From Geothrix sp. (lineage in GTDB: Bacteria; Acidobacteriota; Holophagae; Holophagales; Holophagaceae), in NCBI RefSeq assembly GCF_030219325.1, contig NZ_CP126625.1, positions 1,476,857-1,540,856 of the forward strand: DNA of 64,000 bases, in the 5' to 3' direction. Both the position numbers and the translations under genes were made by a program. Below, piece after piece: positions 43,486-47,399 of this stretch; positions within the stretch are counted from its first letter, which is position 1, and every line of letters starts with the position of its first letter. The notes under the pieces were generated by a model, which saw nothing but the letters and a program-made list of their open reading frames with translations, had not been told where the DNA came from and made no database searches.

Positions 43486-44295
43486 TCAGAGGAACCGCAG
43501 GGGCTTCATGTCGGGGGCGAAGCCATGGCGGACGGCCTTCTCGAAGAATAGGGCCAAACTCTCCCGTTCGGCCTCGCCCAGGGTGTAGCTGATGTTCTCG
43601 GTCAGGTACTCGTGCAGCTCGATCTTGGTCCAGCCGATGGTGCGCCGGGCCTCCTCGACGATGGCCGGCAGCTGGGCCAGGCCGATCTCCAGGCTCTTGT
43701 GGAAGAAGGGGGCCACGCCGCCCGGTACGGGCAGCTCCGCAGCATCCTTCCGGACCAGCCACAGGGCGAAGACGAAGGGCAGGCCGGTCCAGGCGTGCCA
43801 TTCCTCCGCCAGGTCCAGGACAAAGAGACCCTGTTTGGGCGCCCGCATGGCGGCGTCGCCGATCATGAGGGCCGCATCGTTCGCCTCCAGCATGGCGGGC
43901 AGATCGGGTCCCATGTCCACCACCGCGGGGGTCACGCCGTAGCGCTCGCGCAGCAGCAGCTGGGCCAGGACCACGCTGGTGCGGCTGGAGGTGTCCAGGG
44001 CCAGGCTGCGGATCTGCTCGGGCGGCACCTTGGACAGGATCAGCACGCTCCGCACGCGCTTGGGCGAGGCGATGCAGAGCCCCGGCACGATGCGCAGATC
44101 CGGGATCCTCAGGTATTCGATGGAGCTCACGATGCCGGCGTCGACCTCGCCATCCCGCAGCCGGTCGGCGCAGGCGGAGGGATAGTGGAATTTCAGGTGG
44201 AAGTGCTCCCAGCCCAGCCCGTGCTTGAAACCGTGGTTCAGGGGGGCGGCGTTGAGGTAGTCGATGATGGACAGGCGGAAGGGTGCGGCAGTCAT
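43486..44295 (-). CDS. mqnA: Chorismate dehydratase MqnA (futalosine pathway)
   Basis: MqnA dehydrates chorismate to 3-enolpyruvyl-benzoate, the first step of menaquinone synthesis by the futalosine route. The 269-residue product shows SIIDYLNAAPLNHGF at its start, GEVDAGIVSSIEYLRIPDLRI and LALDTSSRTSVVLAQLLL. These are MqnA family landmarks in a periplasmic-binding-protein-like fold. ATG 44295 is preferred because the family starts just before this first strand; ATG 44322 is an alternative and overlaps the divergent gene. It implies that the respiratory quinone is menaquinone. Confidence 0.92.
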   Translation of the reverse strand: MTAAPFRLSIIDYLNAAPLNHGFKHGLGWEHFHLKFHYPSACADRLRDGEVDAGIVSSIEYLRIPDLRIVPGLCIASPKRVRSVLILSKVPPEQIRSLALDTSSRTSVVLAQLLLRERYGVTPAVVDMGPDLPAMLEANDAALMIGDAAMRAPKQGLFVLDLAEEWHAWTGLPFVFALWLVRKDAAELPVPGGVAPFFHKSLEIGLAQLPAIVEEARRTIGWTKIELHEYLTENISYTLGEAERESLALFFEKAVRHGFAPDMKPLRFL

Positions 44296-44320
44296 ATCCT
44301 CAGTATGCGATGATTCACGC

Positions 44321-44791
44321 ATGATCCTCTGGCACTACGAGTTGAACACTCCGATGGGGCCCATGCGGGCCGCCTTTGATGGCCGGGGGCGGCTTCTGGA
44401 GCTGGTGCTGGAAGGCTTCGACCCCCGCAAGACCAGTCCCCTCCCGCCCAGGGAACAGCGGGAGGCCAAGCGGTTCCTGGATCGCCAGATCGATGCCTAC
44501 CTGGCCGGCACCCTCCGCACCTTCACGGTTCCGCTCGACCCCCAGGGCAGGCCCTCCCACCTGCGGATCTGGGACACGGTGCGCACCATCCCCTACGGCC
44601 AGACCCGGCAACCCTCGGATTTCGCAGCCTGGCTGGGACTCGACGAGGAGGTGGTGGTGATGGCCTGTGCCAGCAATCCCATCGCCCTCCTGATCCCCGC
44701 CCACAGGGTGGTCCTGCCGGGCGAGGGCCCCCTGCCCAAGGCCCTGCGGGACCTCGAATCGGGCCTGGGCTGGCGCAAGCCCGGGGCGTGA
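44321..44791 (+). CDS. MGMT-fold protein lacking the active cysteine (ATL-like)
   Basis: This is a 156-residue member of the O6-alkylguanine-DNA alkyltransferase fold. The N-terminal ribonuclease-like part (MILWHYELNTPMGPMRAAF) and the core IWDTVRTIPYGQTR are clear. Where the active site PCHRV belongs it has LLIPAHRVV, with A127 for Cys, so alkyl transfer is impossible. The arginine that flips the base out (in V-R-A-V-G-x-A-N-G-A-N-P) is also absent: the site reads EEVVVMACASNP. The C-terminus is shorter than usual. It could be an alkyltransferase-like lesion-binding protein, or a decaying duplicate. It heads the alkylation-repair cluster; no ribosome site is obvious. Confidence 0.7.
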   Translation: MILWHYELNTPMGPMRAAFDGRGRLLELVLEGFDPRKTSPLPPREQREAKRFLDRQIDAYLAGTLRTFTVPLDPQGRPSHLRIWDTVRTIPYGQTRQPSDFAAWLGLDEEVVVMACASNPIALLIPAHRVVLPGEGPLPKALRDLESGLGWRKPGA

Positions 44792-44851: not shown

Positions 44852-45376
44852 ATGCTTGGTTCCATGCCTGGTTCCTTCCATCCCATCGTTTCACCCGTCG
44901 GGGACCTGGGAGCCGTCTTTGATGACGAAGGGAAGCTGCTCCAGCTCATCCGGTTCCATGGGGCGCCACCCCCGGAACCTCCGGGCCCGGCCCCGAAGTG
45001 CCTCCCCTTCCTGAAGCGCCAGCTGGAGTCCTATTTCTCCGGCAACCTCCGGGACTTCAACATCCCCACCCACGTGGAGGGCACCGACTTCCAGCGGCGG
45101 GTCTGGAAGGAACTCCTGAAAATCCCCTACGGCCAGGCGATCTCCTACCTGGAACTGGCCCGCCGCCTGGGCGATGAGAAGTGCATCCGCGCCGCTGCCC
45201 GGGCCAACGGCGCCAACCCCATCTCCATCCTGATCCCCTGCCATCGCGTCATCGGCTCGGATGGTTCCCTCGTGGGCTATGGTGGTGGCCTGGACATGAA
45301 GGAGTTCCTCCTCCGCCTCGAAGGCGTGCTGCCGAAGTCCCCCCCCCAGCCGCGGCTGCCCCTCACCTGGGATTGA
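44852..45376 (+). CDS. Methylated-DNA-[protein]-cysteine S-methyltransferase
   Basis: This is a 174-residue MGMT/Ogt protein that removes alkyl groups from O6-alkylguanine by transferring them to its own cysteine, a one-use reaction. The helix-turn-helix and active-site region read VWKELLKIPYGQAISYLELA, RAAARANGANPISIL and IPCHRVIGSDG, and the closing GYGGGLDMKEFLLRLE is complete. Either ATG at 44852 or 44864 may start it. It follows the MGMT-like protein without cysteine on the same strand after 60 bases, so the pair gives one active and one inactive form side by side. Confidence 0.92.
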   Translation: MLGSMPGSFHPIVSPVGDLGAVFDDEGKLLQLIRFHGAPPPEPPGPAPKCLPFLKRQLESYFSGNLRDFNIPTHVEGTDFQRRVWKELLKIPYGQAISYLELARRLGDEKCIRAAARANGANPISILIPCHRVIGSDGSLVGYGGGLDMKEFLLRLEGVLPKSPPQPRLPLTWD

Positions 45377-45435: not shown

Positions 45436-46851
45436 ATGCGCTGGTCGGATGAGCACCTCTACGAACGGATCCTGGCGAAGGACGCCTCCTTCAACGGCAG
45501 GGTCCTGACGGGCGTCCTCACCACCGGGATCTACTGCCTGCCCTCCTGCCCCGCCCGGAAACCCCTGGCCATCAACGTGCGGTTCTTTCCGGACGAACCG
45601 GCCGCCCAGGCTGCGGGGCTCCGTCCCTGCAAGCGCTGCCGCCCCGATGCCTTCTACCGGGGCGAGGATGCTGACCTGGCCCGACTGGAATCCGCCCTGG
45701 CCCAGGCCGTGGCGGACCCGGCCGCCTTTCCCGAGGTCGAGGCCCTGGCCGAGGCGGCCGGCGTGGGCGTCACGAAGCTGAAGGACCTGTTCCGCGATCA
45801 TGTCCACCTCCAGCCCGCGGCATTCCTCCAGCGCATCCGAATCCAGTCGGCCTGCGTCCGGCTCGCGGCGGGGCAGGGCGAGCTGACGGACCTGGCCATG
45901 GACTCCGGCTACGAAAGCGCGTCGGGGTTCCACGAGGCCTTCCGCCGGCAGACGGGACTGAGCCCCGGCGCCTTCCGCACCATGCTGGGTTCGGACCACT
46001 TCACCTTGTCCATGCCCGCAGGCCTGCGGGTGCAGGACGTGCTGGCCTTCCACGGTCGCGATGGCCAGAGCGTGTCCGAGCGTGTGGACGGGAAGCGACT
46101 GCACAAGGCCTTCCTCTGCGAAGGCAAGCCTTCCGTGCTCAGCCTGGCCTTTCAGGAAGAGGCCGTGGACGTGTCCCTGCAGGGGGCGACGGGTCCCGCC
46201 GCCATGGCGACGGCCCATGGTGCGGCCCTCCGCCTGCTGGGCTGGCAGGGCGATCCCTCCGCCTTCGAAACGGCCCATCCCCGACTGGCGCGGGGCCGTG
46301 AGGGACTGCGCGTGTTGCTCACGCTGGATCCCTTCGAGGCCCTGGTGTGGGCGATCCTGGGGCAGCAGGTGAACCTGGCCTTCGCCTACGCCCTGCGCCG
46401 TGACCTGATCCGGCTGGCGGGCGACCCAGTAGAAGGCGGCCTCTTCGCCCATCCTGATGCGGCCCGGATCGCCGGGTTGCAGGTCGAGGAGCTCCTGGCC
46501 CTGCGCTTCTCCCGCCGCAAGGCCGAGTACCTGCTGCATGCCGCCGCCGAGGTGGCCTCGGGCCGGCTGCTCCTGGAAGGGCGGACCACGGCCACGGGCC
46601 TGGCCCGAGACCTGCTCGCCCTGCGGGGCTGCGGGCCCTGGACGGCGCAGTACGCGCTGATGCGGGGCTTCGGTTTCCGCGATTGCGTGCCCGTGGGGGA
46701 TGCGGGCCTCACTCTGGCCCTGCAGCGCTGGTTCAAGCTCGACACGCGCCCGGATGCCGCGGAGACGCTGCGCCTGATGGCGCCCTTCGCGCCCCACCGC
46801 AGCCTCGCCACCTTCCACCTCTGGTCCAGCTTGAAAGGAACTCCCGCATGA
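45436..46851 (+). CDS. Ada-AlkA fusion: methyl-phosphotriester sensor and 3-methyladenine DNA glycosylase
   Basis: This is a 471-residue fusion. Residues 1-75 form the Ada zinc domain with C34, C38, C65 and C68 (GIYCLPSCPARKP, CKRCRPDAF); C34 would take methyl from DNA phosphotriesters. Residues 80-165 form an AraC-type helix-turn-helix (GYESASGFHEAFRRQTGL). Residues 175-275 resemble the AlkA N-terminal domain, and 280-470 the HhH-GPD glycosylase with LRGCGPWTAQYALM and catalytic Asp in PVGDAGL. It would sense methylation, activate genes and remove 3-methyladenine in one protein. The Ada methyltransferase domain is supplied by the next gene, which it overlaps by four bases. Confidence 0.92.
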   Translation: MRWSDEHLYERILAKDASFNGRVLTGVLTTGIYCLPSCPARKPLAINVRFFPDEPAAQAAGLRPCKRCRPDAFYRGEDADLARLESALAQAVADPAAFPEVEALAEAAGVGVTKLKDLFRDHVHLQPAAFLQRIRIQSACVRLAAGQGELTDLAMDSGYESASGFHEAFRRQTGLSPGAFRTMLGSDHFTLSMPAGLRVQDVLAFHGRDGQSVSERVDGKRLHKAFLCEGKPSVLSLAFQEEAVDVSLQGATGPAAMATAHGAALRLLGWQGDPSAFETAHPRLARGREGLRVLLTLDPFEALVWAILGQQVNLAFAYALRRDLIRLAGDPVEGGLFAHPDAARIAGLQVEELLALRFSRRKAEYLLHAAAEVASGRLLLEGRTTATGLARDLLALRGCGPWTAQYALMRGFGFRDCVPVGDAGLTLALQRWFKLDTRPDAAETLRLMAPFAPHRSLATFHLWSSLKGTPA

Positions 46852-47399
46852 ATGGCATCCGCTTGATCGATACCTCCCTCGGCCCCGTGCAGGCGGCCTT
46901 CGACGCCGAGGGCGCCGTGATCTACCTGGGCTTTGCGGATCACGAATTCCGGGAGGCCCTGCTGGCGAAGGTGGCCCGACTGGGCCCCGCATCCCGACTG
47001 GATGCCGCCGTGGTGGATCGCCTCCACGAGCAGCTGGAAGCCTATGTCTCGGGAGGGCGCAAGGCCTTCGACATCCTCTTCCGCCTGCACGGCAGTCCCT
47101 TCGAACAGCGGGTGTGGGCGGGCCTCCAGCGCATCCCCTTCGGCGAGACCCGCAGCTACGGTCAGCTGGCGGCCGAGCTGGGCGATCCGAACCTCAGCCG
47201 CGCCGTGGGTCGGGCCAACGGCGCCAACCCCGTGTCCATCCTGGTGCCCTGCCACCGGGTGATCGGTGCCAATGGCACCCTCACGGGCTACGCAGGCGGA
47301 CTGGCCATGAAGGAGCGGTTGCTGCGGCTGGAAGGCGCGCTCAGACCCGGACTGTTCCCAGGGGACCGCGCTCCAGTTCGAGCCGGGTCTCTGCGGTAG
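46848..47399 (+). CDS. Methylated-DNA-[protein]-cysteine S-methyltransferase (second active copy)
   Basis: This is a 183-residue O6-alkylguanine transferase with complete active site: RVWAGLQRIPFGETRSYGQL, RAVGRANGANPVSIL, VPCHRVIGANG and YAGGLAMKERLLRLEG. Its ATG overlaps the stop of the Ada-AlkA fusion (ATGA), so it is co-translated and acts as the detached C-terminal part of an Ada system. It is distinct from the copy at 44852. The C-terminus overlaps the end of the convergent SAM decarboxylase gene by 59 bases, which is unusual. Confidence 0.93.
   Translation: MNGIRLIDTSLGPVQAAFDAEGAVIYLGFADHEFREALLAKVARLGPASRLDAAVVDRLHEQLEAYVSGGRKAFDILFRLHGSPFEQRVWAGLQRIPFGETRSYGQLAAELGDPNLSRAVGRANGANPVSILVPCHRVIGANGTLTGYAGGLAMKERLLRLEGALRPGLFPGDRAPVRAGSLR

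Follow-up and report, generated by a model that had tools for sequence, protein, structure and literature searches.

A Geothrix protein descended from alkyltransferases lacks their active-site features and is most constrained in its N-terminal domain

Alkyltransferases (AGT, MGMT or OGT) repair DNA by taking methyl groups off guanine. The active ones have two domains, and the role of the N-terminal domain (N-domain) is debated: it may serve stability or cooperative assembly on DNA, and the clusters have yet to be demonstrated in cells (PMC10779285). In the cooperative clusters of human AGT the contacts lie in the N-domain (PMC10779285). In the OGT of Mycobacterium tuberculosis (MtOGT), a flap (residues 29-39) shifts when DNA is bound and allows neighbouring subunits to touch, and the R37L variant has a lowered DNA affinity (PMC5751216). 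Alkyltransferase-like proteins (ATLs) keep the arginine finger and the tyrosine and lack the N-domain (PMC10779285). Finally, in the engineered proteins SNAP-tag and SsOGT-H5 the HTH is altered and DNA is no longer bound, the fold being kept (PMC7216122, PMC5751216).

The gene analyzed here, termed pseudo-OGT, lies in a window of 64,000 nucleotides (the whole stretch of DNA under study) from a Geothrix sp., a soil bacterium. A search of the available literature for Geothrix together with methylguanine found no paper. Pseudo-OGT has the two-domain fold, the His, the Asn hinge, the Glu and the HRV in common with MtOGT (4wx9, 4bhb) and other active AGT/MGMT/OGT proteins. In contrast to these, it is without the acceptor Cys, the arginine finger, the Tyr and GYxGG, its HTH region is acidic and the constraint on its domains is inverted. 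With ATLs (S. pombe Atl1 3gva, E. coli ATL and Vibrio 2kif) it shares the replaced acceptor Cys and the fold of the C-terminal domain; unlike pseudo-OGT, however, they mostly have Trp at this position, keep Arg and Tyr and have no N-domain. As in SNAP-tag and SsOGT-H5, its HTH is altered and the fold is kept, but in those two proteins the reactive Cys and the active-site loop are still present. Also close are the active OGTs of clade A from sister genera in the Holophagaceae (L097, L100-L105), which share the N-domain motif, mostly the place beside mqnA, and 47-53% identity with pseudo-OGT. Unlike it, they keep PCHRV and GYxGG or a near variant, and while some have the Arg, others have Gln or His instead.

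Lost active-site features and the comparison with ATLs

The pseudo-OGT reading frame begins with the ATG at 44321 and its stop ends at 44791. This start is backed by the orthologues, in which M-x-x-WHYE is kept and the upstream translation is not. We aligned the protein to the two neighbouring OGTs (P0002 and P0003) and to human MGMT. The acceptor motif PCHRV has become PAHRV (A127), the arginine-finger position is occupied by E110, with two residues deleted just upstream, the SY pair containing Tyr114 of human MGMT is replaced by Q97-P98, and about eight residues following HRV, including the GYxGG active-site loop, are deleted. His128, Asn119 (hinge) and Glu146 are retained. Pfam PF01035 matches residues 80-131 above its cut-off (42.5 bits), a match that spans positions 3-56 of the 81 in the profile and leaves the last third of the domain unmatched. 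The score against NCBIfam TIGR00589 (ogt) is 38.2 bits, under the cut-off of 46.4, compared to 107.9 bits for P0002 and 112.9 bits for P0003. Of the hallmarks of an active MGMT, pseudo-OGT thus lacks the acceptor Cys, the arginine finger and Tyr, the GYxGG loop and a TIGR00589 score above cut-off, and has the two-domain fold (Pfam; predicted structure, Z 14-19 to AGTs). The original prediction had described an alanine in place of the acceptor cysteine, an acidic residue at the position of the base-flipping arginine and a shortened C-terminal segment, and had placed the protein outside both the usual MGMTs and the usual ATLs; all of this agrees with the alignment, which adds the lost Tyr and loop and an N-domain that is present.

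The weight which that prediction placed on the alanine itself was misplaced. Of 32 aligned orthologues, 18 have A at the acceptor position, 7 have S, 3 T, 3 C and one V, and the arginine finger is absent from every aligned Geothrix orthologue. Judged from this alignment, alanine is no signature and the position drifts among small residues. The three proteins with PCHRV, from Geothrix paludis, G. terrae and Geothrix sp. SG200 (L061, L062, L064), are likewise without Arg, Tyr and loop. Their Cys codon differs from the Ser codon TCC by a single base (TCC/TGC), and the motif would have been retained or have come back by reversion (TCC to TGC).

C116, the only cysteine of pseudo-OGT, is invariant across the lineage, and the PCHRV-bearing clade A homologues of sister genera have no Cys at this position. 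It aligns with human Met134 in the lesion pocket, one of the residues that reportedly interact with methylated guanine in the human protein (PMC9515978), and C116 could be a relocated acceptor for alkyl groups or in redox chemistry. We consider this very unlikely, as Cys is also found at this position in several active MGMTs of the Ada type (ACAxN), so that it may serve packing, and as the Arg, the Tyr and the active-site loop for base presentation are missing.

The mean net charge of the HTH region is -1.6 in pseudo-OGT, +3.7 in OGT1 and +2.2 in OGT2 (one pseudo-OGT row was wrongly split, with a slight effect on the mean), and the recognition helix of pseudo-OGT is acidic and hydrophobic. This bears on whether the protein might be an unusual ATL that marks O6-alkylguanine for nucleotide excision repair, a reading which fits the replaced acceptor Cys and the MGMT homology in the DNA-binding domain. 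By its residues and domains, pseudo-OGT is not an ATL, since both residues retained by ATLs, Arg and Tyr, are missing and the N-domain, absent from ATLs, is present (PMC10779285). Moreover, the charge and composition of its HTH, the deleted active-site loop and the Cys at the acceptor position in three species all speak against such a role, as does a canonical ATL elsewhere in the same genome. The latter, L034, lies outside the window on the minus strand (G000:C1:1167840-1168088). It has PWHRV, SYGQ and the arginine finger, and its best solved matches are Vibrio 2kif and S. pombe Atl1 3gva. An ATL function of pseudo-OGT is therefore highly improbable.

Table 1. Features of the pseudo-OGT locus, with positions given in the window.
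Feature	Coordinates	Strand	Basis
Pseudo-OGT gene, 156 aa, MGMT fold without acceptor Cys, arginine finger, base-flipping Tyr and GYxGG loop	44321..44791	+	ORF, Pfam, orthologue alignment
Pseudo-OGT N-terminal domain, residues 1-76, most constrained part	44321..44548	+	dN/dS
Pseudo-OGT residues 31-50, motif (E)xxDPR[KQ]TSPLPP[KR]EQREA, aligned with MtOGT flap around R37	44411..44470	+	conservation, alignment
P98 codon, position of base-flipping Tyr (Tyr114, human MGMT)	44612..44614	+	alignment
E110 codon, arginine-finger position (Arg128, human MGMT)	44648..44650	+	alignment
C116 codon, sole Cys of pseudo-OGT	44666..44668	+	orthologue alignment
A127 codon, alkyl-acceptor Cys position; orthologues A/S/T/C/V	44699..44701	+	orthologue alignment
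TGCGATGAT, extended -10-like element, end 6 nt upstream of pseudo-OGT ATG	44306..44314	+	orthologue alignment
OGT1, canonical active OGT (PCHRV, SY, Arg, GYGGG), constant neighbour	44852..45376	+	Pfam, NCBIfam, synteny
Ada metal-binding domain, AraC HTH and AlkA-type HhH-GPD glycosylase in a single protein	45436..46851	+	Pfam, NCBIfam
OGT2, second canonical OGT, 4-base overlap with Ada-AlkA gene	46848..47399	+	Pfam, NCBIfam
mqnA-type menaquinone biosynthesis gene, divergent; syntenic marker across family	43486..44322	-	Pfam, synteny

Conservation of the gene and constraint on its two domains

Intact pseudo-OGT genes are found at the same location in 41 of 47 Geothrix-group genomes, with 67-97% identity. 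In G012 and G028 the gene is interrupted by an assembly gap or the end of a contig, and three drafts that are 58-93% complete (G017, G027, G066) contain neither pseudo-OGT nor OGT1. Only G023 carries an internal deletion, which leaves an in-frame remnant of 38 codons (L039:1000-1121) with OGT1 intact downstream. The order of genes is divergent mqnA, pseudo-OGT, OGT1, often Ada-AlkA and OGT2, followed by speD and a gene for an rRNA methyltransferase (both of these identified by eye). OGT1 adjoins every pseudo-OGT copy checked, and mqnA is the only other constant neighbour. Pseudo-OGT thus does head a repair cluster, followed by OGT1, Ada-AlkA and OGT2, and its reading frame is sound, both as originally predicted; a gene broken in close relatives, named there as grounds for refutation, was seen in G023 alone. 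The Ada-AlkA protein, which combines an Ada N-terminal domain, an AraC-type HTH and an AlkA-type glycosylase, has no MGMT domain and is likely an alkylation-responsive regulator of the operon. Its gene is absent from some Geothrix genomes that have pseudo-OGT.

The orthologue alignment reveals the sequence TGN[CG]AT[CG]AT 5-7 nt upstream of the pseudo-OGT ATG in 37 of 38 orthologues, which suggests an extended -10 element and, with it, a promoter of its own and a leaderless transcript. A scan for the sigma-70 consensus gave no match. On the other side, AGTCTA/TAGACT is conserved in many relatives near the start of mqnA (about 44296-44306), the true start of which is probably near 44296. The elements on the two sides suggest divergent leaderless transcripts. 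A search for a standalone N-domain elsewhere in the genome found none, with weak matches to the two OGTs only. PHROGs returned a weak generic methyltransferase match and no phage link, and PADLOC no defence link.

A structural model had been proposed as a check, and the AlphaFold2 model built with 68 homologues shows a two-domain MGMT fold with a pLDDT of 91.8, the sole weak block being residues 31-40 (65). However, the alignment behind it is full of active MGMTs, and the orthologues alone gave a pLDDT of 47 (a model that was not used); the prediction is thus not independent proof of folding. The best structural match is the MtOGT-DNA complex 4wx9 (Z 18.9, 147 residues aligned, rmsd 2.8, 31% identity). 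ATL structures match the model at residues 76-150 only (Z 8.6). In Foldseek and VIA searches MGMTs and ATLs were the only strong matches, Z-DNA-binding domains and integrases being weaker (Z 4-5). The most conserved block of pseudo-OGT, DPR[KQ]TSPLPPKEQRE, corresponds to the flap of MtOGT around R37, a segment implicated in cooperative assembly on DNA.

To compare selection on the two domains we calculated pairwise dN/dS by the Nei-Gojobori method from 36 genomes, values which are approximate at high GC. Over all pairs, dN/dS of pseudo-OGT is 0.12 in the N-domain and 0.29 in the C-domain, compared to 0.29 and 0.09 in OGT1 and 0.29 and 0.13 in OGT2. Since the two halves of pseudo-OGT have the same dS (0.81), the constraint acts on the protein; for the same reason, a DNA-level constraint or an overlapping gene as the cause of the N-region conservation is unsupported. 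The result was checked with 18 disjoint pairs and a codon bootstrap, which gave 0.076 (0.043-0.107) for the N-domain and 0.173 (0.114-0.233) for the C-domain of pseudo-OGT, and 0.216 and 0.057 for OGT1. The N-domain value was below that of the C-domain in 99.8% of the resamples for pseudo-OGT and in 0% for OGT1. Moreover, among 30 aligned orthologues, 38 of the 76 residues in the N part are invariant versus 24 of the 78 in the rest, and the tightest blocks are residues 31-50, with a mean entropy of 0.29 bits (0.97 in OGT1), and 62-76, with 0.27 bits (0.51 in OGT1). Constraint in pseudo-OGT is shifted to the N-domain, and the active-site domain is relaxed relative to the active OGT neighbours. 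The OGT1 N-domain is not co-constrained with it. At 0.17-0.29, dN/dS of the pseudo-OGT C-domain is still purifying and this domain is thus not free to decay.

Purifying selection among the homologues had been put forward as a check in the original prediction, and it was found in both domains. The new role suggested there holds in part: given this selection a changed role is likely, but the focus on the active site does not stand, as the constrained part is the N-domain, which went unmentioned.

Descent within the Holophagaceae

Sister genera have a single active MGMT with PCHRV, mostly in the same place beside mqnA. The N-domains of these proteins and of pseudo-OGT have the motif WHYEL, AAFD.RG.L, DPR.T.PL.PK.QREA and LRTFTVP in common. 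The motif-bearing N-domain was found in the Holophagaceae only: across 297 genomes of the phylum, proteins outside the family score at most 37 bits, versus 140-156 in clade A. In a tree of 54 proteins, Geothrix pseudo-OGT falls inside clade A, beside g17 and g24, and OGT1 falls in a second clade, B. A Geothrix-only tandem duplication giving rise to both was rejected, as joining them costs 62 lnL (p-AU 0.0001). Pseudo-OGT and OGT1 are members of the older clades A and B.

In g17 and g24, the nearest relatives, the Arg is replaced by Gln and PCHRV is kept. The inverted constraint is already there in g17 (N 0.12, C 0.27, one pair), in which the clade A gene lies away from the mqnA place. From the loss of Arg with Cys kept in these two groups and the inverted constraint in g17, the order of events in the lineage appears to be that the Arg was lost, the constraint then shifted, and Cys and loop were lost last. 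Several sister MGMTs combine PCHRV with a lost arginine finger (His or Gln), some also without the SY Tyr (L098:1482-1982 and L099:4975-5475 in g21, L103/L104:5001-5490 in g17 and L105:3221-3715 in g24). Two g21 genomes show partial erosion (SY to SC and RAV to HAV). The Arg-less proteins with PCHRV in g21, g17 and g24 represent intermediate steps of erosion. The same N-domain occurs in sister genera in a single active gene with no adjacent OGT1, and in g17 away from the mqnA place, which argues that the role of the N-domain predates the pair.

A further MGMT-fold lineage, in g23 of the same family, has PSHRV or PTHRV and is without acceptor Cys, Arg and Tyr (L107:4983-5477; L109:4980-5498, minus strand; L108). 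Its gene follows closely on that of an ABC-F-like ATPase (by eye, similar to EttA), and its dN/dS is 0.25 in the N-domain and 0.83 in the C-domain (one pair). The g23 branch is long and its position unsure; joining it to pseudo-OGT was not rejected (p-AU 0.20), and a separate origin of this lineage is consequently not established. Such degeneration, together with the drifting acceptor position, the relaxed C-domain and the internal deletion in one genome, would fit a decaying relic, in which an old repair paralogue is heading for loss under residual constraint. We regard this as improbable for pseudo-OGT. Its dN/dS values are far from the value near 1 of a pseudogene, the frame is intact in 41 of the 47 genomes of the group and the -10-like element is conserved. 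Furthermore, dN/dS of the N-domain (0.08-0.12) lies below that of the N-domains of the active OGT neighbours, and decay would not raise constraint in one domain.

A proposed partner role and its rivals

We propose, with a probability of roughly 0.45, that pseudo-OGT is an alkyltransferase-derived protein that has lost repair and lesion flipping and has kept its N-domain for protein contact, perhaps as an accessory of an OGT. Of this, the data show the loss of four catalytic or flipping features, the gene kept intact across the genus, the inverted constraint, the stepwise descent from active homologues and the conserved promoter-like element. Pseudo-OGT is probably a non-enzymatic partner protein. 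By analogy, protein contact is the most likely retained function, and we infer that the partner is an OGT. Made from the head of an alkylation-repair operon, it would be a full-length MGMT-fold protein, derived from an active alkyltransferase, that no longer accepts alkyl groups or flips bases in the manner of MGMT. Selection would keep the N-domain, above all the flap motif DPR[KQ]TSPLPPKEQREA, and the protein would act through protein-protein contact, in analogy to the N-domain contacts that build cooperative clusters of active AGTs on DNA. As an accessory subunit it could join, cap or space OGT assemblies, or it could sequester an OGT.

As candidate partners, OGT1, the constant neighbour, comes first and self-assembly second. 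Because the N-domain of OGT1 is not co-constrained, a contact between two N-domains is unsupported, and the contact would thus need the conserved C-domain of OGT1, self-assembly or another protein. The same absence of co-constraint, the motif kept in sister genera without an adjacent second ogt and in g17 with the gene elsewhere, and the case of G023, which lost pseudo-OGT and kept OGT1, make a different partner a serious rival. The partner of the N-domain would then lie outside alkylation repair and could be, for instance, a regulator, a protease or the replisome, and the place in the operon would be historical. We consider this somewhat unlikely, as the constant pairing with OGT1, with mqnA as the only other fixed neighbour, and the conserved promoter-like element at the operon head argue against it.

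Extending the accessory role proposed for pseudo-OGT, alkyltransferases may have a class of non-catalytic partners, separate from the ATLs and with the N-domain as the working part, which would control the cooperative assembly of OGTs on DNA and may have arisen more than once in the Holophagaceae (in Geothrix and in the PSHRV/PTHRV lineage of g23). Such a class is for the present a doubtful generalization.

For annotation, it matters that the loss of the acceptor Cys alone does not make an ATL. The N-domain of alkyltransferases is poorly conserved in general, and here it is almost unchanged. Pseudo-OGT is a natural protein that has given up catalysis, and selection on its N-domain is stronger than on those of the active neighbouring OGTs; sister species represent stages in between. 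Since catalysis is lost and the N-domain is kept, the function of this domain can be tested on its own, and the genus includes species in culture.
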